DNA of 20,602 nucleotides from Aquisalimonas sp. (GTDB taxonomy: Bacteria > Pseudomonadota > Gammaproteobacteria > Nitrococcales > Aquisalimonadaceae). The notes beneath the pieces were generated by a model that was given only the letters and a program-made list of their open reading frames with translations, had not been told where the DNA came from and ran no database searches. The position numbers and the translations under genes were made by a program. Position 1 is the first letter of the stretch. Each line of letters begins with the position of its first letter. Where the stretch lies: positions 1 to 20,602 of the forward strand of contig SKYZ01000007.1 of NCBI GenBank assembly GCA_007127625.1. Direction: 5' to 3'. This document shows, piece after piece, positions 1 through 20,104 of the stretch.

Positions 1-824
1 CCGCTTTCACGCATCTTCTGCATGCCGCCGCGTACTTCCTCCAGCTGCTGGCTGATGCGATCGCCGGCGTCGGCGTTGCTCTGGCCCTGCTCTGCTGCCT
101 GGCGAATCTCGCCGGTGATGGATTCCACCTCGCCCTGGATGCGGTGGACCAGTTCCTGGATCTCCGCGGCGCTCTTCTGGGAGAGCTCCGCCAGGCTGCG
201 CACTTCGTCGGCGACCACGGCGAAGCCCTGCCCGTGCTGGCCGGCGCCCGCGGCCTCGATGGCCGCGTTCAGGGCCAGCAGATTGGTCTGATCGGCGATG
301 CGGGTGACCGCCTTGACGATGTCCCCCACCTCTTCGGCCCGCCGGGACAGGGTATCGGCACCCTCCACGGCACGGCCCTGGCGCTCGATGCCACGCTTGA
401 CCACCTCCACGAGGTCCTCGATGCGGTCACCGGTGCTGATGACCTGATCGGTCATGCTGTCCAGGCGCTGGGCGCCGGCGCGGGTATTGTCGCGCTGCTG
501 GGCCACGGCGCTGGCCACCTGGGTCACCGAGCCGAGAGCCTGCTGGGACGCGCCGGACGCCTCTTCGGCACCGACGGCGATCTGGTTCATGGACCGCTTG
601 AGCTGCTCGGCCGCGGACGAAGACTCCGTGACGCTACTGCCGAGCTGCGCCACGGCCGCGGCGATGCGCTCCGCCGCCTGCTGGCGCTTCGCCATGGTCC
701 GTGCGCGCCGCCGGGCCGCCTCCGCCTCACGGCGGGACTGCTGTTGGCCGCCATCCTTTCCGGCACCCTGCGAACCGTGTTCCTGCTCGCCCGATTCCAG
801 ATCGGACTTCTTTACCAGTGCCAT
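1..824 (-). CDS. Soluble methyl-accepting chemotaxis protein, C-terminus outside window
   Basis: Partial gene running off the left edge; 274 residues are visible. The protein is cytoplasmic: no membrane segment and no HAMP domain. A charged Arg/Ala/Gln-rich leader (about residues 28-60) leads straight into the chemoreceptor coiled coil. The CheA/CheW-contacting hairpin tip is clear around residues 175-214 ([17 protein letters not shown], then [14 protein letters not shown]). This tip reads EAAGAG where most receptors have EAARAG, a substitution I recall from other soluble receptors. The receptor should feed CheA/CheW. Any sensor domain must be C-terminal and lies outside the window, so the ligand is unknown. 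The ATG at 824 follows a GGGGAGAG ribosome site. It is divergent from the CheB/CheR fusion gene, and a consensus sigma28 promoter 91 bp upstream suggests late flagellar-class expression. Confidence 0.9.
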
Positions 825-1081: not shown

Positions 1082-4000
1082 ATGTCGAATATCAGCGGGG
1101 AATACGACAGCGACGAACCCGTGCCCCGGAGTGACCTCCCGTCCCAGGCGCCGGAGGATGGCGCCATGACGGTGGTGGGCATCGGCGCGTCCGCTGGTGG
1201 TCTCGAAGCCCTGCGTGCGTTTGTCGGGTCACTGCCCGCGCACACGAACATGGCCTACATCATCGCCCAGCACCTTTCGCCCAGGCACGAAAGCATGCTG
1301 GTGCAGCTCCTGGCCCGGGAAACGGACCTTCCCGTGGCACAGATCAGCGACGGCATGGCCATCCTCCCCAACACCATTGCCATCGCGCCCGCCAATGCCA
1401 ACCTGGTGGTGGAAGGCGGTCTACTGCATCTCACCGAGCCCGAAGACCGCCCCATTCCCAAGCCCTCGGTGGATGCCTTTTTCCGCTCCCTGGCGGACGA
1501 ATTCGGGGACCATGCCATCGCCGTGGTGCTCTCGGGCACTGGCAGCGATGGCAGCCACGGCATTCGCAGCATCAAGGCCGCCGGCGGCTTCACCCTGGCG
1601 CAGTCACCGGACACTGCAAAGTATGACGGCATGCCGCGCGCCGCCATGGAGACGGGGTGTGTCGACATGGTGATGGCGCCGGACCGCATGGTCGGAGAGC
1701 TCCAGCGCATCGCCGACATGAGCGGTCGCACGCTGCTGATTCAGCCGGAACAGCAGGAAGCTCCGGTCTACGATCGCATAACGCGCCTGGTGCACAGGCA
1801 GACCGGGCTGGACTTGGCCGCGTACAAGGAAAAGACCATCCAGCGGCGATTGCGACGACGCATGGCAGCCCGACACATGAGCACCCTGGACGACTACCTG
1901 GCGCTGCTGCAAGCGGAGCCCCACGAACTGCAGCAGTTCTGTCAGGACGTGCTCATTTCCGTGACCTCGTTCTTCCGCGACCCCGAGGCCTTCGAGGCCC
2001 TGCGGGAACAGCTCGACGCCATGCTGCGCAAGCGTCGTCCCGGGGACGACATCCGCATCTGGACGCCGGGGTGCGCCACCGGGGAAGAGGCCTACAGCCT
2101 GGCCATCCTCCTGTGCGACATGCTTGGCCCCGCCGTGGGCGACTACCGCATCCAGATCTTTGCCACCGACCTGGACGACACCGCCCTGGGCACTGCCCGC
2201 CGCGGCGTCTACAACGCCGCATCGCTGGCGGAACTGCGGCCGGAGACGGTGAATCGCTATTTCGAGCCCGCGGGGGACCAGTACAAGGTCAACAAGGCGC
2301 TGCGGGAAATGCTGGTGTTTGCCCGCCAGAACCTGTTGCACGATCCGCCGTTTCTACGGCTGGACATGATCAGCTGTCGCAATCTGCTGATCTACTTCAA
2401 CAACGACGCCCAACGGCGGCTGTTCGAGCTGTTCCATTACGCCATCAATCCCGGCGGTCTGCTTTTTCTGGGAAAGTCGGAGAACGTCACCCGGCATGAG
2501 CATCTGTTCATGTCGCTCGACAGCCGCTGGAAGATCTTCCAGCACCGGGGCAACCGTAGCCCCCGCGCGGCACCCCCCTATCGCTCCGGGATGACCACGC
2601 CCCGGGAGGATCCGTCGGCGGCGGTGGCGCCGCGCACGCGCCTGAGCGCCTACGACCGCATGGTGCGCGCGACCCTGGAGCACTACGCCCCGCCGGGCCT
2701 GCTGGTCGACGATGAACTGGTGATCCAGCACATCCTCGGGGACACCTCGCAGTACCTTCGCATCCCCCACGGGGAACCTGACTTCAGCGTGCGCAACCTG
2801 GTCCGGCATGAGCTGCGAATCGACCTGGCGGCGCTGGTGGCGCGGGTGAAGAAGCATGGCGAATCCGTCAGCAGCCGTCTGATCCATCTGCCGGACGCCG
2901 GCGAACGGGTGCGGGTTTCCGTTCACCCGGTCACCGGCGAACTCGATCAGGACCTCCTCTACCTCATCAGCTTCGACCGGCAGGCTGCCACCGAGGCTTC
3001 CCCAAGGCGCGAAACCGATGCCGGGGATGGCACCGATGCCGAGCATGCGGAGTCGGCCGAGCGGCATATCGACGACCTGGAGGATGAGCTGGCGACCACC
3101 CGCGAGCACCTGCAGACAGTGATCGAGGAGCTGGAGACCACCAATGAGGAGCTGCAATCCTCCAACGAGGAGCTGCAGTCGTCCAACGAAGAATTGCAGT
3201 CGTCCAACGAGGAACTGGAGACCACCAACGAGGAGTTGCAGTCCACCAACGAGGAACTCACCACCGTCAACGAGGAGCTCGGCAGCAAGACCGACGAACT
3301 CAACGCCGCCTACACGGACATTGCCAACGTCAAGGACAGCCTGACCGACCCGCTGGTGGTCGTGGACGCAGGCCTGCGCATCAAGTTCTGCAACCCCGCC
3401 TGCGATGACATCTTTGCAGGGGGCGAGGCACTGGAGGGCACCCCCATCCTGGATCTCGAGCTCCGCCTCAGCGTCCCGCGCTTCCGGCAGCGCCTGATGA
3501 GAGTGGTGCAGAAAGGCGAGCAGATCGAGGTGCAGCTCACCCAGTCCCTGCACACCACGGAAGAAGGGGGTGAGCCGGACGGCAGTGCGGTGCAGCGCTT
3601 CTATCTCCTGCGCATGCAACCCTATCTGGATCAGGACGAGACCGTGCGCGGGGCCGTCATCACGTTCTTCGACAACACCCGGATCAAGCGCGCCGAACGG
3701 GAGGCCCGCGAGAGCGAGAGCCGTCTGCACGCCATCGTCAACCGTTCACCGGTCATCACCACGGTCAAGGACCGGCAGGGGCGTTACGTGATCGCCAACG
3801 ACGCCTTCGAGTCGCTGCTCGGCCTGCAGCCAGGCGGTGCCATCGGCCGCGTGGATGCGGACCTGCTGCCGGCACCACTGGCCAGCCGGAATGCCGAACG
3901 GGAGCGTGAAGCCTCGCGCAGCGACGTCACCCGCGAACACGAGGAGAGCTTCGAGCTCGGCGGGCAATCTTACACGTTCATCGTCGAGCGATTCCCGCTG

Positions 4001-6013
4001 CGCGACGAGGACGGCCAGGCGTACGGGCTCTGCACGAAAGCGCTGGACATCACGGCGCGGCGGCGGGCCGAAGAGGAGATTCGCCTGCAGTCCAAGGCGC
4101 TGGATGCCGCCATCAACGGCATCCTGCTGGCCGACGCCAGACGGCCCGACATGCCCATCGTGTACGTCAACCCGGCGTTCCAGCGCATTACCGGCTATCC
4201 CATGGAAGACGCCCTGGGCGCCAACTGCCGTTTCCTCCAGGGGCCCGACACCGATGCCGAGGCCGTTGCCACCATCCGGCAGGCGCTGCATGACGGCACC
4301 TCCGGGCGCGCACTACTGCTGAACTATCGTGCCGACGGCACCCCGTTCTGGAACGATCTGTCCGTCGCTCCGGTGCACGACGACCTGGGTAAAATCACCC
4401 ACTTCGTGGGCGTTCAGCAGGATGTCACTCAACGCGTGCGCTCGGAGCGTGCCCGGCGCGAGAACGAGGAGCGCCTCAGGACCGCACAGGATTACGCCGC
4501 CGTGGCCAGCTTTGAGTGGCATCCCGGCAACGCCTCCCTGGGCACACCGGAGCAACTCAACAAGCTCTTCGGCATCACCCCCGCCAGCCGGGAGTTGACC
4601 ATCATGCAGCTCCTGCGGCGGGTGCATGCAGAGGATCGGCATCCGCTGCTGCGTGCAGCGCGCCGGTGCCTGCAGGACCGGGGCGAAATGGACATCGAAT
4701 TCCGCGTCGACCGCGACGACGGCCTGCATCACTGGCTGCAGATCCGCGCCGATGCCGAACGCGATCCGCAGGGCCGCCCCATTCGCCTCCTCGGCCTGGT
4801 CATGGACATCGGCCGGCGCAAGGACGTGGAGAATGCCCTCCTGAGCGCCCGGGTTGAAGCGGAGCAGGCAAATCGCGCCAAGTCCGAATTCCTCTCGCAC
4901 ATGAGCCACGAGCTGCGCACGCCGCTGAATGCCATCCTGGGCTTCGGTCAGCTCCTGGAAAGCGACCCGGATGCGCCACTGAACGATACCCAGACCGAGA
5001 ACGTCCAGCACATTCTCAAAGCGGGCTGGCATCTGCTGGACTTGATCAGCGAGGTCCTGGACCTGGCCCGGATCGAGTCCGGTCGGCTGAACGTGGAGTA
5101 TCAGCCCACGGACGTCCGCACCGTGGTGGAAGACAGCATCCGCACCGTGGCACCCATGGCCGATCAGCGCCAGATCGCAGTGGAACACGACGTCCAGTTC
5201 GACGGCGAGTTCATGTCGGACACCACCCGCCTGACCCAGATTCTGCTCAACCTGCTGACCAACGCCGTGAAGTACAACCACGACGGGGGCCATGTGCGCC
5301 TGGTGGCCTGGGAAGCAGAGCAACGGCTGCATATCGCGGTGAGCGATACCGGCATCGGCATCAGCGAGGCCGATCACGACGGACTGTTCGAGTCCTTCAA
5401 CCGGCTGGGTCAGGAGGGCGGGCGCATTCAGGGGACGGGCATCGGGCTGGTACTGGTCCAACGACTCCTGCGGTTGCTCGGCGGCGACATCCAGGTGGCG
5501 AGCACTCCGGGGCAAGGTAGCACCTTCACCATCAGCCTGCCGTTCGTGTCGGCCGACCATGTGAGCCATCTGACCGGAACCGGCAATCAGGCGAACGTGC
5601 ACGCAGCGCCGGCAACACCCCCGAACAAGAAGTTGCGGGTGCTCTACGTCGAGGATAATCCCAGCAACATGGCCCTGGCGCGGGAAATCTTCCGGCGCGA
5701 CCCGTCCATCGAACTGCTGGAAGCAACGGATGCCGATACCGGCATCGCCGTGGCCACGAGTGAACAGCCCGATCTGATTCTCATGGATCTGCACCTGCCC
5801 GGCATGCATGGCCGGGAGGCGCTGGAGGCATTGCGCCTGGATGCGCGCACGGCGCGGATCCCGGTGGTGGCTGTCAGTGCCGATGTCGCCGCCAGCGCCG
5901 AAGACGTCCGCGCCGGGGGCTTCGCCCAGGTGCTGACAAAGCCGCTGCGGCTGCCTGACCTGCGCAGGGCCCTGACGCAGTGCGTCCGCAGCAGCGAGCA
6001 GCTTGGAACCTAG
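1082..6013 (+). CDS. CheB-CheR-PAS-LOV-PAS hybrid histidine kinase, blue-light sensor candidate
   Basis: 1643 residues. The ATG at 1082 follows GAGGT; an in-frame start at 1028 has no good ribosome site. Domains: CheB methylesterase 30-210 with triad S37 (GASAGG), H64 and D156 (GTGSDGS), but no CheB receiver; CheR methyltransferase about 228-490 with the SAM loop [11 protein letters not shown] at 330-340; PAS-like 520-632; NEEL heptad coiled coil 662-740; PAS about 750-868; PAS about 880-992; LOV 1003-1119; PAS with PAC 1130-1247; HisKA with H1276 (SHELRTP); HATPase with N1394, DTGIG and GTGIGL; receiver 1517-1635 with phospho-acceptor D1569 and K1620. The LOV domain has adduct cysteine C1049 in GANCRFLQG, flavin-contacting N1030, N1081 and N1091, and signalling Q1112. 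CheB and CheR normally remove and add receptor methyl groups. CheBR fusions with PAS domains are known; one with an intact LOV, kinase and receiver is notable. No membrane segment, so cytosolic. Confidence 0.93.
3122..3296 (+). repeat. In-frame 21-bp heptad repeat inside the CheB/CheR fusion gene
   Basis: About eight tandem copies of a 21-bp unit encode a seven-residue pattern built on NEEL (residues 681-738), for example NEELQSS and NEELETT. Hydrophobic leucines recur every seventh residue, so the segment is a parallel coiled coil joining CheR and its PAS-like unit to the other PAS domains. This coiled coil is typical of CheB/CheR/PAS fusions. The near-identical DNA units could recombine and change length. 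Confidence 0.85.
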
Positions 6014-6033
6014 TGTCCCGTCCCGGACACTAG
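6010..6033. terminator. Palindromic hairpin between convergent genes
   Basis: CTAGTGTCC and GGACACTAG form a perfect 9-bp stem with a 6-base loop. It includes the stop codon of the CheB/CheR fusion and lies 18 bp beyond the stop of the convergent LOV-GGDEF-EAL gene. No T-run follows on either strand, so it is not a textbook intrinsic terminator. It may stop both transcripts weakly or protect their 3' ends. Confidence 0.45.
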
Positions 6034-6050
6034 TCCCCGCTCAGCGGCGC

Positions 6051-9000
6051 CTAACCGATAAAGGGCTCCGGCTTGTGAACACCGAAGCCCTGTGCGTAGC
6101 GCACGCCAATCTCCTTGAGCCGGTCCATCACCTCATCGTTCTCGACGAACTCGGCAATGGTCTCGATACCCATGACGGTGCCGATGCGCTGCATGGCCTC
6201 CACCATGGCCTGGTCGAAGGAGTCCACCAGCAGTTCACGCACGAAGCGACCATCGATCTTGATGTAGTCCACCGGTAACGTCTTCAGGTAGCCGAAGGAC
6301 GACAGCCCGGCGCCGAAGTCGTCCAGGGCGAAGGAACAGCCCAGAGCGCGGATGCGCTGAATGAACTCCACGGCGGTCTCCAGGCGACGGATGGTGGCCG
6401 TCTCCGTGATCTCGAAACACAGCAACTCGGGCGGAACGCCGGTATCCCGCACATGTGCCACGAGGAAATCCGCGAACCCGTTCTCGCCCACCGTGGCGCC
6501 AGACAGGTTGATGCTGTAGCGCGCCGGCTGACCGCGCTCCAGGTGCAACTGACGGATCCCCTGAAGCGCGCGTCGTACCACCCAGCGATCCACCCGCGGC
6601 ATCACCTGGTAGCGTTCCGCCGAAGGAATGAAGCTCCCGGGCGCAATGAGTTCACCGTTCTCCCCGAGCATGCGCACCAGCACCTCGTAGTGCGGCCTCT
6701 CGTCGGCCTCGGGAAACAGCGGAACGATCTGCTGGCGGTAGAGCGCGAACCGGTCTTCCTCCAGGGCGCGGTTGATGCGCGGAACCTGCTGAATCAGCTC
6801 GGATTCCTGCAGCACATGACCGTCCTCATCGCGGTAGACCTGAACCCGGTCCCGCCCATTGGACTTGGCCGAGTAACAGGCGGTATCCGCGGCACTGAGC
6901 AGATCCTCGGCGCCGCCGCTGTCTGCGGTGACCGCCACCAGACCGGCACTGGCACCGACAAAGAACGCCTGATCCTGCCAGACAAACACGTAATTGCGCG
7001 CCGCTTCCACCAGCTTCTCGGCGACGCGCACGGCGTCTTCCAGCCGGCAGTCGCGCAGCAGCACGCCGAACTCGTCGCCGCCCAGCCGTGCCACCATGTC
7101 GCACTCGCGCACTTGTGCCGCAAGCACCGAGCCCAGGCGCGCGAGCAGTTCGTCGCCGGCCCCATGGCCGCAGGTATCGTTGACGATCTTGAACTGGTCC
7201 AGATCCAGATACACCAGGGCGTGCTGCGCTCCGCGGCTGCGGGTGTCATCCAGAAGGCCATTGAGGCCCTCATTGAAGCTGGCACGATTGGGCAGCCCCG
7301 TCAGGGCATCGTGATAAGCCAGGTACTTGATGCGCTGATGACGCTCCCGGGACAGTGCCATCTGGCGCAGGCGCTGCCGCAGCACGGGCAGAAAGATCGG
7401 TTTGGTGATGAAGTCCGTGGCACCGGCCCGGATAGCCTCGCTGGCAGACACTTCATCATTCAGTGCCGTGATGATCAGCACTGGCAGCTCCGCGAACTCG
7501 TCGCGTTGTTTGATGCGGCGACACGCCTCCAGGCCATCCATGCCGGGCATGACACAGTCCATGAGGATCAGGTCGGGAACATTATGTTCCAGATGCTGCA
7601 GCGCCCGCTCCCCGTTTTCGACGGCAGCAACGCGGTAACCGTCCCGACGCAGGAACTCCGTGAGCATCAGACGGGTGTCTGCGGCGTCCTCGACCACCAG
7701 TACCGACCGCTCTGACTCGTCGACTGCCTCGCACCGGGCTTCCCGACGATGCTCATTCTCCTGTTCGCGCCGCTGGCGGGCGTCCAGGGCCGACTCTGCC
7801 CACTGGGTAAAGCGGGCGACGGCATCCTCCAGCAGGCGCAGTGTCGCCCGGGCTTCATCCATCTGGTGCCGCCCGATCTGGTCATGGAGGGCATTAGCCA
7901 GGCCCACGCCCTCCGACGCACTGAAATTGGACAATCCGCCCTTGACGGTATGTGCCAGGAAGCCGGCCTCCGTGGCATCACCCTGCTCCAGGGCATTCTC
8001 CAGGTTGCGCACGCGTTCGGGGAAATCCCCGGCGAAGGCCTCCAGCATGTCGCGAAACAGCGGCACGTCGTAATCCAGCGCCCGCAGTGCCCGGTCCAGA
8101 TCCACCTGCTCGGTGGCATCCACAACCGCACCCTGCGGCGCGTCGCCGTCGCCGTCGCGCCGCCCCACCTGCTCCCACAGCACCCGCCGCAACTGTGCGT
8201 GACTCACGGGCTTGGTGACGAACGCATCCATGCCCGCCGAGCGGCTGCGCTCCCGCGCCTCTTCCATTCCCGCAGCGGTCACGGCGATGACCGGCAACCG
8301 GGGCAGCCCCTGCTCCGCCTCTCTGAGCCGCAGCAGGCGCGTTGCGTCGAAGCCGTCGCAACCCGGCATGTAGAGATCCAGAAACACCACGTCCGGCGGC
8401 TGTTCGGCCACCGCAGCGAGCACCTGCTCGCCGTCCTCGGCCACTCGTACCGCGTGCCCATCACGCTCCAGCAGACCCCGCAGCATCTTCCAGTTGACCG
8501 GATTGTCTTCGCCCACCAGCACCTGGAGCGGCCGCGCCCCATCGTGCGCCGCGCCGCCATGGACATCGTGCAGGGAGATGGAACGCTGCATACACAGCGT
8601 GAAGGTGAACTCGGGGTCGACCCTGAGGACGGCGCCGCCAAGCCGCGCCTCGCGGGCAAGCTCGACGAAGCTCAAGTCCCCCAGCGCGCCCCAGGCCATG
8701 TCATCACCGACGGAGGTCATACCGGGATCAATGACACCGATCAACGACGGGCTTACGGTCATCACCGGGGTCATGCCGCCGTCGGGACCGCGCTCCAGCC
8801 CCAGATCCACCCGCACTTCCGGAACCGGATGAAACCGGCACAGCAAACCGAGCACGCCGGCGAGCACATCGGTGAGCACCTGGAGCACACCGTGAACGCG
8901 CTCGGGAAAGCGGGCCTCACGCGTGACCTGCAACCGCAGCCAGGGCGCCGCGCGCTCCGCGCGGCGGCGGACCTGGGTCAGGAGATCATCCGGCACGAAG

Positions 9001-9662
9001 GCATGCACTTCCCGCCACTGGGACTCGTGCTCCAGATGCTCGTCCAGGGCGCCGTGAACAACCCGATCCGCCGGCGTGGCCGCCACCTGGAGCCAGTGCT
9101 GGACGTCGGTTGCCTGCTCCCCGTCCGGAACGAGCCCATGGCGCCGAACCAGCGTCGCGATCCCCTGCTGGCGTCGCAGTTCCGGCACCGTGGGCGTGCT
9201 GTCGCCAACCCGCTCCGGAAGCGCTGACACATCCCGGAGGAAACCGGCGAAGCATTCCGGCTCGCCGGGCAGTCCACCCAGCGGCAGCATTGTCATCTCA
9301 TTGATGAACGCCCGGCCCTGACGATCATAGTTCCGCACGAGGCCGCGCATGGGCCGTGCTTCACGGAGGGCCTCGCGCATCAGCCGTCTTGCCGGCTGAT
9401 CGAACTCCTCGCCCTGCAGCACGCGACAGTTGTTGCCCAGCATGGCGCCTGCCGGCCAGCCGCTGAGGCGTTCGAACTGCGGATTGACATAGACCAACGG
9501 CTGATCCGGCGCGCGCGCATCGGCAACTGCCAGGGCTTCGCCAGCAATGGCCACCAGGTCATCCAGAATCCCCTGAAGACCGTTTCGCATGCGTTCAGCA
9601 GTGATGACGTACTTCCTCGGATGTTGGGGGCGATCCGTGCCGGAGCGTGTCCTGGACTCCAC
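6051..9662 (-). CDS. LOV / pseudokinase / REC-Hpt-REC / GGDEF-EAL cyclic-di-GMP protein
   Basis: 1203 residues from a GTG at 9662; an ATG at 9590 (residue 25) is an alternative start and neither has a convincing ribosome site. Order: LOV 30-147 with C79 in GNNCRVLQG, N60, N111 and N121, but L142 where the conserved glutamine should be; 165-362, a degenerate kinase core that still aligns with the HATPase end (GGAVLRVDPEFTFTL) but lacks the N-box asparagine and glycine boxes; receiver 378-500 with D429 and K484; Hpt about 520-620 with H571 (AHTVKG); receiver 652-770 with D702 and K754; GGDEF at 861-865 with a product-inhibition RxxD (RECD, 852-855); EAL domain 960-1203. The EAL signature reads EVL, but N1052, E1084, D1114-D1115, K1135 and Q1191 are kept. 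It could make and break c-di-GMP. Last gene of the minus operon, 40 bp after the PP2C gene. Confidence 0.92.
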   Translation of the reverse strand: MESRTRSGTDRPQHPRKYVITAERMRNGLQGILDDLVAIAGEALAVADARAPDQPLVYVNPQFERLSGWPAGAMLGNNCRVLQGEEFDQPARRLMREALREARPMRGLVRNYDRQGRAFINEMTMLPLGGLPGEPECFAGFLRDVSALPERVGDSTPTVPELRRQQGIATLVRRHGLVPDGEQATDVQHWLQVAATPADRVVHGALDEHLEHESQWREVHAFVPDDLLTQVRRRAERAAPWLRLQVTREARFPERVHGVLQVLTDVLAGVLGLLCRFHPVPEVRVDLGLERGPDGGMTPVMTVSPSLIGVIDPGMTSVGDDMAWGALGDLSFVELAREARLGGAVLRVDPEFTFTLCMQRSISLHDVHGGAAHDGARPLQVLVGEDNPVNWKMLRGLLERDGHAVRVAEDGEQVLAAVAEQPPDVVFLDLYMPGCDGFDATRLLRLREAEQGLPRLPVIAVTAAGMEEARERSRSAGMDAFVTKPVSHAQLRRVLWEQVGRRDGDGDAPQGAVVDATEQVDLDRALRALDYDVPLFRDMLEAFAGDFPERVRNLENALEQGDATEAGFLAHTVKGGLSNFSASEGVGLANALHDQIGRHQMDEARATLRLLEDAVARFTQWAESALDARQRREQENEHRREARCEAVDESERSVLVVEDAADTRLMLTEFLRRDGYRVAAVENGERALQHLEHNVPDLILMDCVMPGMDGLEACRRIKQRDEFAELPVLIITALNDEVSASEAIRAGATDFITKPIFLPVLRQRLRQMALSRERHQRIKYLAYHDALTGLPNRASFNEGLNGLLDDTRSRGAQHALVYLDLDQFKIVNDTCGHGAGDELLARLGSVLAAQVRECDMVARLGGDEFGVLLRDCRLEDAVRVAEKLVEAARNYVFVWQDQAFFVGASAGLVAVTADSGGAEDLLSAADTACYSAKSNGRDRVQVYRDEDGHVLQESELIQQVPRINRALEEDRFALYRQQIVPLFPEADERPHYEVLVRMLGENGELIAPGSFIPSAERYQVMPRVDRWVVRRALQGIRQLHLERGQPARYSINLSGATVGENGFADFLVAHVRDTGVPPELLCFEITETATIRRLETAVEFIQRIRALGCSFALDDFGAGLSSFGYLKTLPVDYIKIDGRFVRELLVDSFDQAMVEAMQRIGTVMGIETIAEFVENDEVMDRLKEIGVRYAQGFGVHKPEPFIG

Positions 9663-9702: not shown

Positions 9703-11424
9703 TCAGCAACGGCCTGCGGGCAACCGGTACACGGCCTCTACCTGGTTACCCCGTCCGTAGTACCGCAGCGACTCACACATGCCCTGGATCAACGAGACCC
9801 CCCGACCGCACAGCGCCGACTGGTTCGGCTCGCCCCCGGCCAGCAGGCCGCGATAGTCAAAACCGCTGCCCGAATCGGTCATGCGGATCAGCAGAAGCGG
9901 GCCCGCGCCGTCGGTGCGCCGATCCAGCTGAATACGCACTCGACCGGCACGCAGCTCCTGCAGCGCCCGTTGCCGCCCTTCATAGTAGGCGGCGAACCCG
10001 TCCGGGGAATCCTTCAACCCGGAATCCAGCCCCAGCACGCCGTGCTCGAGACAGTTCGAGTAGAGTTCCGCCATGACGGTGAGCAGTGCCTGCCGCGCCC
10101 GTTCGTCCAGCATCTCCATGCGAGCCACGCCGTCGACGACAGGCTGCAGGGGCGAGACTTCCCGCAGGGCGCCGGCATCCAGCTCCAGGCTGAAGGACCA
10201 GTCCCGCGGTGCCCCGCGGCCATCAACGGCATCCCCCGATGCTGCAAAATACGCCGGCCACACCTCCAGCAAGGTGATATCGTCCCTGGCCCCTTCCCGG
10301 AACGCCGCAACAGCCTCGTCCAGAGCCGCCACTCCCCCCTTGTGGAGCGCCGCTTCAGCGCGATCCATGCCGAACTCCTCGCCTTTGGCGTCGCGCTCCT
10401 CCAGGGCCCCGTCACTGACGGCCCAAACCGCCAGAGGGGCCAACAGAACCGTCATTTCCGAGCCACCGAATCCGGCTTGTACCCCCAGCGGCAGATGGCT
10501 CGACGGTACGCGCCCCACGGAGCCGTCCGCCGTGCGATAGAGCACGTCCGGCATGCCGCCGTTCCAGATTTCCACGGTCTGCTCCCGCGGATCCAGCACC
10601 ACCAGCGCCCCGGCCATGAACAGATTTGCCGGCAGGTACTCATGGAGCTTGCGGTTGATGCGTGCCAGCACCTCCTCCGGCCCGGCACCGTAAGCCACCG
10701 CACCGTAGAAGAGATCCGCCGTGGGCACTGTGCCGATGCTGGCGGCAATGCCGTGCCCAGTAAAATCCGCCAGCAGAAAAAAACAACGCCCGTCGGGCCC
10801 TTCGGCGGCGAGCAGCATGTCACCGCTGAGAATGTCCGCCGGATGGTATCTATAGACCACACCCGGGCGCCGCAGCACCTCTGATGCAGTGGCTCGCTGC
10901 ATGACGTCCCGGGCGATCCACTGATCAACCTCGTTGCGGCGCTGATAGGCGTCCAGCGCATCACGCTGCTCGCGCAGGGTCCGGTACACCTGGCTGATCC
11001 TGAGCCAGGAGTCCACCCGGGCGTTGAGCTGAACGCGACTCACGGGCTTGGCGATGAAGTCGTCGCCACCGCAGGCAACGCAACGTGCCAGCTGCTCGTC
11101 ATCGTTCAGCGCCGTGACGAACAGCACCGGGACATAGCTGTCGCCGTCCAGCGCCTTGATGCGCCGGGTGGCCTCGTAGCCATCCACTCCCGGCATGAGC
11201 ACGTCCATGAGCACCAGATCCACACGGTGCTCGGTAACGCGCTTGACAGCTTCCTCGCCGTCGGCGGCGGTCAGGAATTCCAGCCCCGCACGGTGGCGCA
11301 GCATACCACGAAGCAACTGCAAATTGACCGGCTCGTCATCCACCAGAAGGACGGTGGCGGCCGGACTGGCGCTAGCTTCGAAGGCCATGACACCCGTCGG
11401 ATCCTTGCCGGCCTCTGTAGCCAT
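9703..11424 (-). CDS. Response regulator with PP2C (SpoIIE) phosphatase and HATPase kinase domain, HsbR/CrsR type
   Basis: 573 residues from the ATG at 11424; a GTG directly before it is an equal alternative. Counting from that GTG (574 residues): receiver 24-145 with D75 (LVLMDVLMPG) and K127; linker helix; PP2C/SpoIIE serine phosphatase about 185-390 with metal-binding D203 (SGDM), D221 (DFTGHG), D339 (VSDG) and D382-D383; anti-sigma type HATPase about 405-574 with N458 in ELYSNCLEH, D518 (TDSGSG) and GRGVSL. In HsbR (Pseudomonas), CrsR (Shewanella) and SypE (Vibrio), this layout lets receiver phosphorylation choose between phosphorylating and dephosphorylating a partner STAS protein. The STAS gene lies immediately upstream, 12 bp away. 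All catalytic residues I can check are present, so both activities are plausible. The first Hpt-bearing kinase upstream could be its phosphodonor; that pairing is inferred. Confidence 0.93.
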   Translation of the reverse strand: MATEAGKDPTGVMAFEASASPAATVLLVDDEPVNLQLLRGMLRHRAGLEFLTAADGEEAVKRVTEHRVDLVLMDVLMPGVDGYEATRRIKALDGDSYVPVLFVTALNDDEQLARCVACGGDDFIAKPVSRVQLNARVDSWLRISQVYRTLREQRDALDAYQRRNEVDQWIARDVMQRATASEVLRRPGVVYRYHPADILSGDMLLAAEGPDGRCFFLLADFTGHGIAASIGTVPTADLFYGAVAYGAGPEEVLARINRKLHEYLPANLFMAGALVVLDPREQTVEIWNGGMPDVLYRTADGSVGRVPSSHLPLGVQAGFGGSEMTVLLAPLAVWAVSDGALEERDAKGEEFGMDRAEAALHKGGVAALDEAVAAFREGARDDITLLEVWPAYFAASGDAVDGRGAPRDWSFSLELDAGALREVSPLQPVVDGVARMEMLDERARQALLTVMAELYSNCLEHGVLGLDSGLKDSPDGFAAYYEGRQRALQELRAGRVRIQLDRRTDGAGPLLLIRMTDSGSGFDYRGLLAGGEPNQSALCGRGVSLIQGMCESLRYYGRGNQVEAVYRLPAGRC

Positions 11425-11436
11425 CACTGCCGGGAC

Positions 11437-11742
11437 TCAATTGCGCATGGGGAAGAGCTGGTGGAAATTGGCGATGCGCAGAATGCGCTCGAGTTCGCCG
11501 CTGACGTTGCGCAGCTCCACCTGAGCACTGTGGGTCTCGGCATGTTCCCGCAGCAGCAGCAGCATGCCCAGGGCCGAGCTGTCCATGTACTCCGTGTCCG
11601 CCAGGTCCACCACGAAACGCCGGACACCGGTGGCCTCGCGGTACGCATCGCGGAAATCGCGGTGCAGCCCGAAGTCGAACTGGCCGCTGATACGGATGAT
11701 CAGCTCACCGTTCTCGTCGGAACGGGTGGTCGTCAATGGCAT
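11437..11742 (-). CDS. STAS-domain anti-anti-sigma factor (SpoIIAA/HsbA type)
   Basis: 101 residues, a single STAS domain. The ATG at 11742 is chosen because GGGGGAGA lies 7 bases upstream; the in-frame ATG at 11769 adds nine residues and lies before that site. The phosphorylation loop is EYMDSSALG at residues 51-59, so S55 or S56 is the expected phosphoserine, as in SpoIIAA. The unphosphorylated form should bind a partner anti-sigma factor or effector; phosphorylation by the HATPase domain of the downstream gene would release it, and its PP2C domain would reset it. In Pseudomonas HsbA, the unphosphorylated form engages the anti-sigma28 FlgM and the phosphorylated form a diguanylate cyclase. 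Neither FlgM nor another anti-sigma gene is present in this window. Confidence 0.93.
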   Translation of the reverse strand: MPLTTTRSDENGELIIRISGQFDFGLHRDFRDAYREATGVRRFVVDLADTEYMDSSALGMLLLLREHAETHSAQVELRNVSGELERILRIANFHQLFPMRN

Positions 11743-11799
11743 GCTGTTTCTCCCCCGAATCGTATGCATTCCGCAGCCCGCCGCCGGGGCTTCGGCATC

Positions 11800-12996
11800 C
11801 TAGAACAGTTCAACTTCGCCGGCATCCATGACGCTCTGAGATACCGATCGCATCGATCGACGCTCTTCCTGACGCCGCTCGCACTGACCCGCCAGCCCGG
11901 CACGCGCCTCGCTCAGTTGCGTTGCCAGATCCCCCCGGCTGTCGGCGCCACTGATCTCCTGCACCACCGAACGGATGCCCGAGAGGTAACTCTCGAGCCC
12001 GTCCACACCGCGGGTGGAGTTGTCCACCAACTGTGTGGAAATGTCCTCGAACTGAAGCGCCCGCACAGCGTCCTGCACATGGCCATCGATATCGCCGGTG
12101 AGGGTGGAGATTCTCGCCAGGCCCGACTCCACTTCCTCGTTCAACCGCTCCAGCCCCTGCATCATGGAGGTGATGCGGTTCTTGGCGTTCAGGGACTCGG
12201 TCATGTCCTGGGAGGCCATTTCGCTTACCGAAGCCCGCGCCTTGTCGATCACGGCACGGGCACTGCCCACCTGCTGGCCGATCTGGTCATTGAAACTGTT
12301 CGCCTGCTCGGCCAGTGCACGTACCTGCTCGGCCACCACCGCGAAGCCTCGGCCGGCCTCACCGGCCCGTGCCGCCTCGATGCTGGCATTGAGCGCGAGC
12401 AGGTCGGTCTGCTTGGCGATGCCGCGGATGTCATCCAGCAGACTGTTGACGGTGTTCATCTGCGCGACGATGTCGTCCATGCTGTGGGCGGCATCGACAC
12501 TGTGGCGGCTCATTTCCACCACCATGTCAACATAGTCGCCGAGAATCGACTCCGTTTCATTGACGAAGGACTTGATACCCAGTTCGTCCTGCCCGCCTTC
12601 ATCCCGGGAAAAACTCATCACCCGGGATGCGAGATCGGCCTGTTCCCGGGTCTTCTCGTTGACCCCGACGAAACTGCCGTTGAGCTCCTGCACGGCATCG
12701 GTCACCAGGGAACGGATCTGGGCCAGGTCATCACGGACATAACCGAACTCGGCGTTGAGGCTCTCGTCCATGTCAGCGAGGAAGCCCCGCAGTTCCTGCT
12801 CGAGCTCACCGTGACCCGCCTCGCTGTTGACCGCCGGAAGCGCACCTCCCATCTGACCGCAGGCGCCCAGCCACCAGCCGATGGCCACCGCCGCGAGCAC
12901 CGCCGGCACCGCAACCACTGCCTGCCACCAGGCCAGCACCGCCAGCACCGCCGCCAACAGCACTGCCACAAGGACACGCGGGCGGGTGGCGTTCAT
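11800..12996 (-). CDS. Membrane-anchored chemoreceptor without sensor domain
   Basis: 398 residues. Two closely spaced hydrophobic segments (about 8-26 and 28-45) form an N-terminal anchor with almost no periplasmic loop, so there is no room for an external ligand domain. A cytoplasmic helical region (about 60-185) precedes the signalling hairpin, [19 protein letters not shown] at 192-210 and [15 protein letters not shown] at 217-231. After the tip come [15 protein letters not shown] (313-327) and a C-terminal EVELF. The receptor-tail NWETF-type CheB/CheR tether is absent. The ATG overlaps the stop of the CheY gene (ATGA), which implies translational coupling. It lies 57 bp before the STAS gene. 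It may sense membrane state, energy or a partner protein rather than a ligand. Confidence 0.92.
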
Positions 12997-15971: not shown

Positions 15972-16028
15972 CATTCTGTACAGGTCACGGGCAAAAACCG
16001 GTCCGAAAGCTGCACTACTCGATTTGAT

Positions 16029-16104
16029 TGGCGTCCCCAAGGGGATTCGAACCCCTGTTACCGCCGTGAAAGGGCGGTGTCCTAGGCCTCTAGACGATGG
16101 GGAC
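16029..16104 (-). tRNA. tRNA-Glu (anticodon UUC)
   Basis: The minus strand reads GTCCCCATCGTCTAGAGG at the 5' end, anticodon loop CTTTCAC with TTC, T-arm AGGGGTTCGAATCCCCT, acceptor GGGGAC, discriminator G and encoded CCA: 76 nt in all. It matches gammaproteobacterial tRNA-Glu closely. It stands alone, with its own strong promoter and terminator. No truncated copy of its 3' end or integrase is visible nearby, so it shows no sign of use as an integration site here. Confidence 0.97.
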
Positions 16105-16135
16105 GCTGTATCTCGACTCGGTCAAGATGGCGCGC

Positions 16136-16164
16136 ATGATACGAAGGGCTCCCCGGGGTGTCAA
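16136..16164 (-). promoter_or_regulatory. Strong sigma70 promoter of tRNA-Glu
   Basis: On the minus strand TTGACA (16164-16159), 17 bases, TATCAT (16141-16136): perfect -35, optimal spacing and 5 of 6 at the -10. A GC-rich discriminator (GCGCGCC) follows, as expected for stable RNA genes under stringent control. The start would be near 16129, about 25 nt before the mature tRNA. Confidence 0.9.
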
Positions 16165-16198
16165 CTCCTTCACGGTCGGTATCCTTCACTAACACCGC

Positions 16199-16227
16199 TT
16201 GGCCCGCACGCCCGGCACACGCACAAT
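16199..16227 (+). promoter_or_regulatory. Weak candidate sigma70 promoter of damX-like gene
   Basis: TTGGCC (16199-16204), 17-base spacer, CACAAT (16222-16227); each hexamer matches 4 of 6 consensus bases. Position and spacing suit the gene starting at 16267, which is divergent from the tRNA. Confidence 0.35.
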
Positions 16228-16266
16228 AGCGACCTATGGCACGGAGCAAGGAGGAAAGGCGAATCC

Positions 16267-17859
16267 ATGGCCGGCGGCGTTTATGAGGCACAAGGGAGCG
16301 GCGCGCTGCGTGCCACGTTCCACTACACCGATGGCGAGCGGGAGACCCGCGCCAATCTGCTGCTGCAGCATCTGCAGTCCGCGGAACAGGTCGTCGTGCT
16401 GCAGGGTGACCCCGGCAGCGGCCGAACGCACCTGCTGCGCAGAATCCTGGCCCGCAGCGACCACGGGCTGCGCATCTATGCCGTTCATTCGGAGGCGGAG
16501 CTCACGCTGACCGATCTGTTGCTGGGGCTGCTCGAGCATTTGCAGCTGCCAGCCCCGCCTTCGGAGGCGCCGGACCGCATTCGCACCCACACGGCGGAGC
16601 GCCTTGCCGCCCTCGCCAGCGCCGGCGAACATCCCGTGCTGGCACTGGACGACGCCGACGTGCTCGGCGATGACCTCCTGGAATCACTGCTTTCGTTGCA
16701 GGACGACACCAGGGCGGACGGGACGCCACCCCTGGGTCTGCTGCTGGTGGGTTCACCGCGGGTGGCCCTGCGCCTCACGGAACTCGCCGGACTGGACCAT
16801 GACCGTACCCCCGTGACCGTGGCCCTGCACGGCCTTGACCGGGCCGCAACCCGGGCGTTTCTGGCGCAGGCCCTCAAGGCCGACGGCGATACCGACGGCC
16901 GCATGCTGGAGAGCCTGGATATCGACGCCATCGTCGAGTCCAGCGGTGGCCGTCCGGTTGCCATCCTGGAGGCAGCCCGTCGGCAACTCGCCGGGGACAC
17001 GCCCGCCGCGCCGGCGGCGCGCCCCTCACGGTCCATTCCCCTGCCCGAGGGGCTACTGCCCAGTGGTTCCCGCCGCAGCATCGGGCTAGTGTCCGCAGCC
17101 ACCGTCGTTCTGGTGGGCACGCTGCTGGCATTGAGCTTCATCGCCGACGGGCCGTCGGAGGACGAACCGGAGCGGATCGAAAGCACCGAGATCACCGCCG
17201 CCGACGAGCAGGTCGACGCGCTGGAATCCGGCGATGTGGCGACACCCGACGCGGATGCCCCTGACACCGGGCAGCCAACCGACCCTGAAGAACCGGAGGC
17301 ATTCGAGGCCCCTGAAACCTATGGTTTCGGGGAGGACGAAGAGTCCCGTGACCAGGCATTCAGGGAGCAGACCGACGAATCCCCGGCACCGGATGCCGAG
17401 GCCCCGGAGGCATCGGAGCCCGAGGCGGAGGCCAGGCCGGAGGTCGCGGACACCGATGACGCTCCGGATGAACCCGCGCCTGCGCCCACTGACGATGATG
17501 CCGACGGGACCGCCGCCGCGGAGCCCGAGCAGGACACCGAAACGGAGCCGGCATCGGAACTGGAGCAGGCCCTGGCCGCAGGCCGTGACTGGCGCGCCGG
17601 GCACACCGACGACGCCTGGACCATTCAGCTGGTGGCGGCCCACAACCCGGAAACCGTCCAGAACTGGATGGAGCGTCACGCCGACGCCGCCGACCTGTAT
17701 CTGCTTCGCACCCAACGGGATGGTGAGGACTGGTTCCTGGTTGTCACCGGCGCCGATAGTGACCGTGAAACGGCGCGGGAACGCCGGGACGGGCTGCCGG
17801 AGGAACTCCGGGAGGGGGGCGCCTGGATACGGCAGCTTCACGGGCTGGACGACTCCTGA
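16267..17859 (+). CDS. damX: DamX-like AAA ATPase / SPOR-domain cell-division protein
   Basis: 530 residues from the ATG at 16267, preceded by AAGGAGGAAAGG. Cytoplasmic AAA/GspA-like ATPase about 25-240: P-loop GDPGSGRTH (47-55) and Walker B VLALDDAD (124-131). The P-loop lysine is replaced by R53, so ATP hydrolysis may be weak or lost. One membrane helix at about 272-293, then a strongly acidic Pro/Glu/Ala/Asp-rich periplasmic linker (296-435), then a SPOR domain (about 448-526, WTIQLVAAH to WIRQLHG), which binds denuded glycan at the division septum. Vibrio and Pseudomonas DamX proteins have this arrangement, whereas E. coli DamX lacks the ATPase. The usual aroK-aroB neighbours are absent: a tRNA lies upstream and a convergent diguanylate cyclase ends 13 bp downstream. 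Confidence 0.88.
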   Translation: MAGGVYEAQGSGALRATFHYTDGERETRANLLLQHLQSAEQVVVLQGDPGSGRTHLLRRILARSDHGLRIYAVHSEAELTLTDLLLGLLEHLQLPAPPSEAPDRIRTHTAERLAALASAGEHPVLALDDADVLGDDLLESLLSLQDDTRADGTPPLGLLLVGSPRVALRLTELAGLDHDRTPVTVALHGLDRAATRAFLAQALKADGDTDGRMLESLDIDAIVESSGGRPVAILEAARRQLAGDTPAAPAARPSRSIPLPEGLLPSGSRRSIGLVSAATVVLVGTLLALSFIADGPSEDEPERIESTEITAADEQVDALESGDVATPDADAPDTGQPTDPEEPEAFEAPETYGFGEDEESRDQAFREQTDESPAPDAEAPEASEPEAEARPEVADTDDAPDEPAPAPTDDDADGTAAAEPEQDTETEPASELEQALAAGRDWRAGHTDDAWTIQLVAAHNPETVQNWMERHADAADLYLLRTQRDGEDWFLVVTGADSDRETARERRDGLPEELREGGAWIRQLHGLDDS

Positions 17860-17872
17860 AGCCGCCCCGCAA

Positions 17873-18775
17873 TCACCAGAAAGCAACCTGGTTGCGCCCC
17901 GCGCGCTTGGCTTCGTACAGGGCTTCATCGGCACGCTGGAGCACACTGTCAACGGTGTCCCCGTCACCGAGCGCTGTAACGCCGATGCTCACGTACACCG
18001 GCAGTTCCTCACCGTTGTAATGGAACTCGTGGCGATCCACAGCGCGGCGCAGGCGCTCGGCCAGCAACCTGGCACCAACAAGGCTGGTATGGCTGAGAGC
18101 GATGAGGAACTCGTCACCACCGGTGCGATAGATGAGATCGCTCTCCCGCGCACAGCGCCGCAGGAGTTTTGCCAGGTCTCTCAGGACCTCATCGCCGGCG
18201 GCATGGCCGAAGGCATCGTTGACGGTCTTGAAGTCGTCCAGGTCCACCGAGACCACGCAGAACTCCTCGCCATGGCGACGGGCAAGGCCCAGCTCGCGGC
18301 ACAGGCTCTGCTCCATGGTGCTGCGATTGAGCAACTGGGTCAGCGGGTCCGTCCGTGCCTCCTGCAGCGCAGCCTCGTACTTGAGTGCGTTCCGTAGCGG
18401 GGTGACCAGCAAGCCAATGCACTGCTCTGCCACCGCAAGGTCGGCGGAGCTGAACGGGCGTGAGGCATGGAGCGTCATGCAGCCGAGCGACTCCCCCTTG
18501 ACGGTGAGCCGATACTGCGCCTGGTGTTCGGCCAGTTCGCCGTGCTCCAGGACTTCGCCGCTCTCCGGTGGCTGGTAGGTCACACCGGCGCAGTCAAAAT
18601 ACTGTCTCGCGCTCTCGCCGAAGGCCTGAATCAGGGCATCCAGCTCCAGGCTCCCCATCCACCGGGACACCAGTTGCCAGGCCTGCTCCGTGGAAAGCTG
18701 CTGCTCCGTGCCCAGGGACACCACGGGGCTCGCCTTGCCCGGGTGCTGTTGCAGAGAGTCGCTGTGCTGCGCCAT
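17873..18775 (-). CDS. GAF-like / GGDEF diguanylate cyclase
   Basis: 300 residues from the ATG at 18775; earlier in-frame starts would lie on or before the sigma54 promoter. An N-terminal region (about 30-132) has the size and ending of a GAF-type sensor but is divergent. It is followed by a helix and the GGDEF domain from ARTDPLTQLLNR (140-151) to the C-terminus. Catalytic GGDEF is intact at 219-223, metal-binding D179 lies in VSVDLDDFK, and the RxxD inhibition site is RESD at 210-213, the correct five residues before the motif. It should make c-di-GMP from two GTP with product inhibition. No membrane segment. It is divergent from fliK and convergent with damX. The sigma54 promoter suggests mid-class flagellar or RpoN-activator control. 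Confidence 0.93.
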   Translation of the reverse strand: MAQHSDSLQQHPGKASPVVSLGTEQQLSTEQAWQLVSRWMGSLELDALIQAFGESARQYFDCAGVTYQPPESGEVLEHGELAEHQAQYRLTVKGESLGCMTLHASRPFSSADLAVAEQCIGLLVTPLRNALKYEAALQEARTDPLTQLLNRSTMEQSLCRELGLARRHGEEFCVVSVDLDDFKTVNDAFGHAAGDEVLRDLAKLLRRCARESDLIYRTGGDEFLIALSHTSLVGARLLAERLRRAVDRHEFHYNGEELPVYVSIGVTALGDGDTVDSVLQRADEALYEAKRAGRNQVAFW

Positions 18776-18815
18776 TGCGTCATCGCCTCGTCGTGTTCTC
18801 AACTTGAGCCCCCTC

Positions 18816-18833
18816 ATGCGAGACACGTGCCAA
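18816..18833 (-). promoter_or_regulatory. Sigma54 (RpoN) promoter of the diguanylate cyclase
   Basis: On the minus strand TTGGCACG, four bases, TCGCAT: the -24 element is a perfect match and the -12 element differs from TTGCAT at one base. The invariant GG and GC are separated by exactly 10 bases. The start would be near 18807, about 32 nt before the ATG at 18775. An activator such as FleQ or another enhancer-binding protein would be needed; I could not identify its site. Confidence 0.78.
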
Positions 18834-18860
18834 CCTGCGAAAGTGCCCTGCAGGTAAGGC

Positions 18861-18875
18861 GCTGGTATCATCGAT
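18861..18875 (+). promoter_or_regulatory. Candidate extended -10 promoter of fliK
   Basis: TGGTATCAT just after 18861: an extended -10 (TGn) followed by TATCAT, 5 of 6 consensus bases, with no recognisable -35. It lies about 35 bp before the fliK start. I found no sigma54 or sigma28 site facing fliK. Confidence 0.35.
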
Positions 18876-18907
18876 TCAGTTCACCGGAGACCAGGACGGA
18901 CGCCCTC

Positions 18908-20104
18908 ATGCTGCCCCCGCCCGTTGCCCCGCAGGCCGCGTTGCTCCGCGTGGCCGAGCCCCCGGCCGGCGCGGCACGCGCGCTGCAGCCCGGCCAGGTG
19001 CTGGACGCAGTGGCGCGTTCGGTTTCGCGGGACGGGCAGGTGACGCTGCAACTCGGCAATCAGACCCTGCAGGCACGCACCGACCAGCCCCTGCAAAGCG
19101 GCGAACGGTTGCAGGTCCAGGTGGTGCGTCAGGATTCTGACACCCTGATGCTGCGCGTGTTGCCGACACCGCGTACCAGCGAGGCGTCGGAGGCCATGCG
19201 CGGATTGCTGGCCCGTCAGGCACCCGCCAACGCGCTATCGGCCAATGCCGCGCTGGTGGTGCAGGAACCTTCCGCGGTTCGCCAGTTGCCGGAACAGGTG
19301 CAACAGGCCCTGCGCCAGTATTTCCAGGCCCTGCCGGATGCCTCCCGGGTCAGCCGCAGTGACGGGCTCCGCCAGGCCGTCACGGACAGCGGCCTGCATC
19401 TGGAACGCCGCCTGGCCGCGGTCGCCGCCGGCGCCGAGCCCCCCGTCACCATTCGCGGGGACCAGAAAGGCCAGCTCGCTGCACTTCTCAACCAGATATT
19501 CAAGGCCCTGGATGCCCGCCCCCGGACCACGGGCAGCAGCGACCAGCCATTGCCCGCCGCCGCCCAGGGTCGCGCCGCACCCGCCACGCCGCCGCCGCCA
19601 CCGCAGCTACCCAGCCTCGCCAATCCCGGGAGCATGGGTGACGCCCTGACGGAACTGGCGCGCCAGGCCGACGGCGCGCTGGCCCGCACCCAACTCCATC
19701 AACTGGCACTGCTCGCCGGCGACGCGCTCCCCTTCTTCTTCGAACTGCCGGTGCGTGACGGTCGCGGCGTCGATCTGCTGCAGTTCCGCATGGACCGCGA
19801 CGGCGAAGGCGACGACAAGGACGGCGAGCGGACCTGGCGGGTCATGGTGAGCTTCAACTTTGAACGCCTGGGGCCGATGCACGCGGTCATCCACCTGTCC
19901 GCGGAGGCCGTCGCCACCACCTGGTGGGCAGAACACCCGGCCACGGCCCGTTTCCTGGACAGGCACCTGGAGGCGCTGACGGAAAGGCTGGAGGGCCTCG
20001 GCCTGCGGGTGGCCAACATGACCTGCGCGGAAGGGCGCCCGCCCATGGCAGACGACGCCCCCGGTTCTCCGGGGCGAGAGGGGTTCATCAATGAGCAGGC
20101 CTGA
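18908..20104 (+). CDS. fliK: Flagellar hook-length control protein FliK
   Basis: 398 residues from the ATG at 18908, with AGGA upstream; longer in-frame starts overlap the divergent cyclase and its promoter. The N-terminal half is Gln/Leu/Ala-rich (30-200), followed by a Pro/Ala-rich linker (about 205-236) and the conserved C-terminal Flg_hook domain (about 275-375), with VMVSFNFERLGPMHAVIHLS at 312-331. FliK is exported as a molecular ruler and, through its C-terminal domain, makes FlhB switch from hook to filament substrates. Its neighbours are unusual: it is not within a fliE-fliL cluster but overlaps a stand-alone FlhB C-domain gene by 14 bp. This matches a FliK-like/FlhB-like gene pair that I recall from many gammaproteobacteria. 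It may be a second paralogue rather than the only fliK. Confidence 0.85.
   Translation: MLPPPVAPQAALLRVAEPPAGAARALQPGQVLDAVARSVSRDGQVTLQLGNQTLQARTDQPLQSGERLQVQVVRQDSDTLMLRVLPTPRTSEASEAMRGLLARQAPANALSANAALVVQEPSAVRQLPEQVQQALRQYFQALPDASRVSRSDGLRQAVTDSGLHLERRLAAVAAGAEPPVTIRGDQKGQLAALLNQIFKALDARPRTTGSSDQPLPAAAQGRAAPATPPPPPQLPSLANPGSMGDALTELARQADGALARTQLHQLALLAGDALPFFFELPVRDGRGVDLLQFRMDRDGEGDDKDGERTWRVMVSFNFERLGPMHAVIHLSAEAVATTWWAEHPATARFLDRHLEALTERLEGLGLRVANMTCAEGRPPMADDAPGSPGREGFINEQA

Follow-up and report, generated by a model that had tools for sequence, protein, structure and literature searches.

The window, that is, the whole stretch of 20,602 nucleotides analysed here, is an entire contig (C367) of the 3.04-Mb draft genome of Aquisalimonas sp., which is 83% complete. 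Its forward strand encodes a 1643-aa fusion protein in which two methylation-type enzymes, a coil, several PAS domains, a LOV domain, a histidine kinase (HK) and a receiver (REC) are arranged as follows.

1082..6013, forward strand: CheB-CheR-coil-PAS-PAS-LOV-PAS-HK-REC fusion, 1643 aa (open reading frame and domain search)
1175..1699, forward strand: CheB methylesterase domain without N-terminal receiver, residues 32-206, with S37, H64 and D156 (Pfam and alignment)
1769..2533, forward strand: CheR_N and CheR methyltransferase, residues 230-280 and 294-484 (Pfam and alignment)
2534..3064, forward strand: stretch between CheR and the coil, residues 485-661, PAS-like by eye
3077..3307, forward strand: glutamate-pair heptad coil, residues 666-742, candidate methylation substrate in cis
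3350..3673, forward strand: PAS_10 domain, residues 757-864 (Pfam)
3740..4066, forward strand: PAS_4 domain, residues 887-995 (Pfam)
4088..4438, forward strand: LOV domain, residues 1003-1119 (sequence and structure model)
4226..4228, forward strand: codon of the adduct cysteine C1049, invariant in 7 of 7 aligned proteins (sequence)
4553..4798, forward strand: PAS_3 domain, residues 1158-1239 (Pfam)
4877..5545, forward strand: histidine kinase core, HisKA 1266-1334 and HATPase 1380-1488, with H1276 (Pfam and alignment)
5639..5974, forward strand: receiver domain, residues 1520-1631, with D1569 (Pfam and alignment)

The domain search recovered on a single chain the order CheB, CheR, LOV, PAS, kinase and receiver that the original prediction had given, and its coordinates and residue numbers are correct. 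The start at 1082 is shared in the alignment by two close relatives, and an alternative GTG start at 1028 would add 18 aa. CheB, CheR and coil follow one another on one chain, as in the CheB/CheR fusion class, and the C-terminal half has the parts of a hybrid histidine kinase, namely HisKA, HATPase and a C-terminal receiver with the phospho-sites H1276 and D1569; Pfam gives no Hpt match in the fusion although both kinase and receiver are present. The tested part (2642-3100) of the stretch between CheR and the coil has no Pfam match, and among the best 25 of 133 NCBIfam rows for the fusion the PAS S-box domain model alone lies above its cut-off.

Residues 1003-1119 form a canonical LOV domain, in which C1049 within the NCRFLQ motif, the three asparagines and Q1112 are all found as predicted. 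The structure-prediction check proposed for this domain gave a model that superposes on the M. ruber LOV at 0.7 Å, with a predicted fold close to those of solved photoactive LOVs, and photochemistry between C1049 and a flavin is very likely on the basis of these residues. A role in life as a flavin redox or stress sensor, with light not being the signal and the cysteine being incidental, is very improbable: a LOV-like domain without the adduct cysteine does occur in six of the best 120 relatives listed, whereas the cysteine is kept in 27 of the same 120 and in all 11 LOV fusions of the order, and the adjoining gene encodes a second Cys-LOV protein. The six proteins in which the adduct cysteine is replaced (P0132, P0134, P0127, P0181, P0193, and P0224) are scattered across the tree described below. 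The genome of the window contains more LOV-like matches, at C12:1053-1388 (L002), C491 (L004), and C79 (L005), with 38-46% identity to the fusion LOV, one of these matches being a short open frame of 147 aa.

The distribution of the architecture was followed with residues 1-1135 of the fusion as the query against 54 genomes of the order, 28 of which gave matches at the cut-off of E <= 1e-40; the architecture was then read in 12 matched regions and in the window. Recurrence of the same order in other genomes, raised as a check by the original prediction, was found, with CheB, CheR, Cys-LOV and histidine kinase encoded in one open reading frame in at least 11 of the 54 genomes. The holders include Aquisalimonas, Natronocella acetinitrilica, Alkalispirillum mobile, Spiribacter halobius, and Halorhodospira. 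Of the 11 LOV fusions, 10 have a detected receiver, L118 being the exception; a plain PAS replaces the LOV in the G028 region, and the G032 region yielded no LOV fusion. A pattern scan of contigs returned two LOV fusions in 55 loci, both already known, the two patterns being narrow and little informative on range.

Two protein sets picked independently of the coil were also examined, one selected with the LOV domain (the best 120 of 946 protein matches) and one with the whole protein (the best 120 of 7902), the database names of the whole-protein relatives being domain names. In the best 120 whole-protein relatives listed, the motif NCR[FILMV]LQ is present in 26, with a kinase as output in 18, GGDEF-EAL in six and neither detected in two; seven more have a LOV-like domain without this motif, P0133 keeping the cysteine (DCRLLQ) and six lacking it, and the domain scan found no LOV-like domain in the remaining 87. 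GGDEF-EAL stands in place of the kinase in the CheB-CheR-LOV proteins P0101, P0146, P0147, P0148, P0164, P0180, and P0190. In a CheB-CheR tree of 127 rows, built by a quick method and with several long branches, one clade of 48 rows (SH-aLRT 99) holds 31 of the 32 motif-bearing rows, all seven other LOV-like rows and 10 LOV-less rows. The simplest reading of this tree would be a single ancient acquisition of the LOV domain, followed by losses and by changes of output.

The genes around the fusion include a divergent chemoreceptor (MCP) on one side and, on the other, a group that converges on it.

3..824, reverse strand: divergent chemoreceptor (MCP), cut by the left end of the window
6051..9662, reverse strand: convergent neighbour with a second LOV, a kinase-like predicted fold, REC, Hpt, REC, GGDEF and EAL
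8535..9197, reverse strand: residues 156-376 of the neighbour, predicted histidine-kinase-like fold
9225..9539, reverse strand: LOV domain of the neighbour, with NCRVLQ present and Leu at the position of the signalling Gln
9703..11427, reverse strand: REC-SpoIIE-HATPase response regulator, HsbR/RsbY-like in domain order
11437..11769, reverse strand: STAS anti-sigma-antagonist, HsbA/RsbV-like

Past the STAS gene there are an MCP-like protein (11800-12996), a CheY-like protein and a GAF-HK-REC-Hpt kinase. The window further encodes an AAA-SPOR domain protein on the forward strand (16024-17859) and, at 17873-20104, a GGDEF protein on the reverse strand and a FliK-family hook-length protein on the forward strand, near the partner-switch genes; the called FliK frame runs into the GGDEF gene, so that FliK probably starts further downstream.

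The REC-SpoIIE gene adjoins the fusion or lies one gene off in six of the 11 loci (window, L114, L115, L116, L119, and L123), and the STAS gene is seen in five of these six, the L115 region stopping short of it. In L119 (Spiribacter halobius) the STAS, SpoIIE and fusion genes are co-directional, and the open frames of SpoIIE and the fusion overlap. Because each genome has just 1-6 SpoIIE matches, chance would not be expected to place one so close, although the loci are related to one another. No REC-SpoIIE gene was found near the fusion in four loci of Alkalispirillum and Halorhodospira type (L118, L120, L122, and L124) or on L117, a contig of just 9 kb. A SpoIIE gene about 5 kb away in L118 (Alkalispirillum) was rejected as a partner; its product has, by eye, a membrane-protein-like start, and an apparent guaB follows. 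The LOV-GGDEF-EAL neighbour is present in five of the 11 loci, namely the window, L114, L115, L117 (where the contig cuts it), and L123.

The protein encoded by this neighbour is, judged from its sequence, a natural Gln-to-Leu LOV protein; the signalling position is Leu in the window and in two close relatives (three of the six aligned) and Gln in the other three. Between its LOV and first receiver there is no Pfam HisKA or HATPase match, and a profile comparison of this region with the fusion kinase gave no match (probability 0.04%). A fold model of the region, made from four sequences and of middling quality (pLDDT 70), found 136 PDB matches at E <= 0.001, the best being RetS (1.7e-07) and DivL (9.3e-07), with TM scores no higher than 0.5 and rmsd values over 11 Å. 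According to this model, the region 8535-9197 is likely a pseudokinase. The HATPase-like end of residues 150-376 of the neighbour gave rise to the idea of a phosphorelay split between the two proteins, which is likely as well on the predicted fold; the neighbour has an Hpt and two receivers, and the fusion a kinase and a receiver.

The CheB and CheR domains of the fusion resemble the chemotaxis enzymes. The residues S37, H64 and D156 of CheB align with what are presumably the catalytic triad positions in 1chd/6ymz and are invariant in 7 of 7 aligned proteins, while CheR aligns with the solved enzymes 1bc5/1af7/5ftw. The N-terminal receiver is the phosphorylation switch of chemotactic CheB; Pfam finds no receiver ahead of the fusion CheB, which begins at residue 32. 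The original prediction had described the protein as a possible phototaxis adaptation enzyme, linking blue light to the methylation of chemoreceptors. The constitution of the chain held, with LOV, CheB, CheR, kinase and receiver together, and chemoreceptor adaptation as its job was not supported in the form given. In such a role, CheB and CheR would act in trans on chemoreceptors, chiefly on the divergent MCP, so that light resets receptor methylation for phototaxis or light-dependent adaptation. The resemblance of both domains to solved enzymes speaks for it, as does the divergent MCP, which adjoins the fusion in four of the 11 loci (window, L114, L115, and L123); in addition, the copy of this MCP in the closed genome of the relative G008 has four strict methylation-type sites, against 0.66 in shuffles, and these sites keep a trans role on the chemoreceptor alive.

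The gene content of the surroundings points the other way. In G008 the divergent MCP leads a run that comprises a protein with three CheW stretches, a receiver-CheB, a CheR, a receiver protein and, truncated at the edge of the region, a CheA-like protein, and a further contig of the window's own genome (C392) has a 349-aa stretch of the MCP, 97% identical to that of G008, with a CheB (88%) and a CheR (91%). By synteny, the fusion in the genome of the window would therefore adjoin a chemosensory operon that has a CheB and a CheR of its own. In L114, the operon protein with three CheW stretches is encoded on the reverse strand (4930-6531), beside an MCP with two signalling-domain stretches. Besides this operon and the missing CheB receiver, action in trans is opposed by the seven of 11 loci, L116 included, in which no relative of that MCP was found beside the fusion, some of these regions being short, by the REC-SpoIIE-ATPase gene being, of the window's neighbours, the one most often kept near the fusion (6/11 loci, against 5/11 for the second LOV protein and 4/11 for the MCP), and by a coil that goes along with CheR and offers an alternative substrate in cis. 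On balance, work on chemoreceptors in trans is rather unlikely.

This coil, at residues 666-742, contains eight EE pairs at a spacing of seven. Its search in 150 Pseudomonadota genomes at E <= 1e-12 gave 50 matches in 37 of them, the genome of the window included, with a CheR in the same open reading frame in 49 cases (30/30 and 19/20). In the fiftieth (L168, G059:C1), a transposase frame stands between the CheR and coil parts of a gene of the CheB-CheR-coil type. One of the coil proteins (L164) has a gap of just 81 residues between CheR and coil. CheR and coil both occur in all of the best 120 whole-protein relatives listed, at a spacing of 164-190 aa; the best 120 LOV-selected proteins listed have either CheR and coil together (seven) or neither (113), and the coil alone in no case. 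In a separate coil search, the match in G031 has a CheB-CheR_N frame upstream of it and no CheR core could be found there, and the remaining 33 coil matches were compared by position only with the fusion-query matches. Descent alone could keep coil and CheR together, as it does fused domains.

The glutamates are the best kept part of the coil. Across 41 coils with less than 80% identity, the share of Glu at the twelve positions of six pairs is 0.90-1.00, with a mean of about 0.97, and that of Leu at the six positions between the pairs is 0.78-1.00, with a mean of about 0.90; the 20 non-redundant coils of the whole-protein set give 0.95-1.00 for Glu and 0.80-1.00 for Leu. As the coil searches began from a Glu-pair coil, such coils are favoured and the conservation obtained from these searches is biased upward. 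In 53 gapless coils, 623 of the 636 codons at the Glu positions encode Glu (404 GAG and 219 GAA), and Gln accounts for six of the 13 others; the retention of Glu with mixed GAG and GAA codons indicates that the constraint acts on the protein. The fusion has six copies of the half-site [EQ][EQ]xx[ASTG][ASTG], compared with 2.0 in whole-protein shuffles, and all six lie in the coil, where shuffles of the coil itself give 0.62. The pattern presumed to be the strict chemoreceptor methylation consensus was found nowhere in the fusion by the pattern scan, which counts against methylation in cis, and is absent as well from the MCP-like protein at 11800-12996.

Its linkage to CheR and its conserved Glu pairs make the coil a candidate for methylation in cis. 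In the full form of this proposal, the fusion would be a self-adapting photoreceptor in which CheR writes and CheB erases carboxyl-methyl marks on their own coil, giving the kinase a methylation memory that needs no chemoreceptors, and methyl-accepting coils acting in cis would be a feature of the CheB-CheR class as a whole; this is conceivable, with the balance leaning against it. Conversely, CheB and CheR may be catalytically idle or act as a scaffold, with the coil as a structural signalling helix and the protein as an ordinary LOV hybrid kinase. The lack of strict sites in the fusion fits this explanation, and so do the 113 LOV matches mentioned above that have neither CheR nor coil, many of which are kinases. 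It is nevertheless quite unlikely, given the invariant CheB triad residues, the Glu pairs, whose mean conservation exceeds that of the Leu core, and the retention of the CheB-CheR-coil-LOV series with swapped outputs (HK or GGDEF-EAL).

The interpretation tentatively preferred, with slightly less than an even chance of being right, is a hybrid histidine kinase gated by blue light, which has a reversible methylation module of its own and resembles the RsbM-RsbK-RsbY system. Blue light would generate the C1049-flavin adduct in the LOV, and the resulting change would pass through helical linkers and the flanking PAS domain to the kinase. CheR and CheB would act mainly in cis on the adjoining glutamate-pair coil and set the gain of the kinase, which would be a memory of earlier light or of signals from the other PAS domains. 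Phosphate from the kinase, directly or via its receiver and an Hpt, would reach the nearby REC-SpoIIE-ATPase protein, which would control the STAS protein by partner switching, and also the REC-Hpt-REC-GGDEF-EAL neighbour; light would thereby move the cell between swimming and settled life. Such a light-gated, methylation-tuned lifestyle switch is favoured because the parts in the window match the RsbM-RsbK-RsbY set and HsbR-HsbA-like parts lie nearby. Points against it are the lack of the strict consensus in the coil, the five of 11 loci in which no REC-SpoIIE gene was found near the fusion, and the conservation of chemosensory genes, too, as neighbours in the closest genomes.

A light receptor may therefore carry its own adaptation machinery, in a combination common to a group of related bacteria. 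Since light is a clean on/off stimulus in the LOV version, methylation adaptation of a histidine kinase would be measurable in real time, and for CheB-CheR fusions at large, which are widespread (the associated coil occurs in 37 of the 150 Pseudomonadota genomes), the link between CheR and coil provides a direct, testable substrate. If the proposal is true, sensor kinases and c-di-GMP enzymes would join chemoreceptors as targets of reversible methylation with a paired esterase, and an optogenetic part with memory could be made from the module. In the available parts of the literature on LOV proteins, CheB-CheR fusions and kinase methylation, no paper on the CheB-CheR-LOV-kinase architecture was found, although it may be included in the surveys of Glantz 2016 or Herrou and Crosson 2011; nor, in the same parts and with the LOV surveys outside their scope, was a paper naming the methylation target of CheB-CheR fusions.

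Among known systems, the fusion belongs by descent to the class annotated as 'two-component system CheB/CheR fusion protein', with which it has in common the CheB-CheR-coil-PAS-output series; it differs by its LOV, the domain scan having found no LOV-like domain in 87 of the best 120 relatives listed. Compared with CheB and CheR of bacterial chemotaxis, the catalytic domains are alike, whereas the fusion lacks the CheB receiver, is a single fused chain and has only candidate targets. The LOV structure is like that of the LOV histidine kinases of Brucella abortus (LOV-HK, 3t50/6ph4) and M. ruber (Mrub_1259, 9vf7), and the LOV-PAS-HK order in the title of 6ph4 is that of the fusion; the titles of these entries are without CheB or CheR, and the fusion adds CheB, CheR, the coil and a receiver.

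The closest functional parallel is the RsbM-RsbK-RsbY-RsbV system of Bacillus cereus (PMC4574943, PMC12848376), as far as the available text of these sources goes, in which the signalling helix of a hybrid kinase with a C-terminal receiver is the target of a methyltransferase, and a REC-PP2C phosphatase, itself phosphorylated by the kinase, controls an anti-sigma antagonist. In particular, RsbM, called an orphan methyltransferase in the RsbK paper, methylates the S-helix of RsbK, whose receiver then restrains the kinase, and released RsbK phosphorylates the REC-PP2C protein RsbY, acting on RsbV (PMC4574943, in part). Here, a CheR-type enzyme, a hybrid kinase and a REC-PP2C partner are encoded together in six of the 11 loci. 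In contrast to RsbM and RsbK, the fusion joins methyltransferase and kinase in a single polypeptide together with a CheB esterase and has a LOV as its sensor, and the phosphatase encoded nearby has an extra ATPase domain. In this comparison the coil would take the place of the methylated S-helix of RsbK; it goes with CheR and has conserved Glu pairs, yet no strict MCP-type site.

The second parallel is the HptB-HsbR-HsbA pathway of Pseudomonas aeruginosa, which, in the available part of PMC5085249, receives its input from hybrid sensors by way of an Hpt and converges with the c-di-GMP control of motility; HsbR is a response regulator with phosphatase and kinase activity and HsbA is an anti-anti-sigma factor. 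The hybrid sensors, the Hpt, the regulator, the anti-anti-sigma factor and c-di-GMP all have counterparts at this locus, where the REC-PP2C-ATPase and STAS genes stand side by side, and no stand-alone HptB was seen in the window. In other pseudomonads, the genes of this pathway are in a flagellar region with fliK (PMC5085249, in part), and the window has a FliK-family gene. The two systems are likened by domain order, and the sensor in the window, whose gene lies near those of the switch, is a LOV fusion with CheB and CheR.
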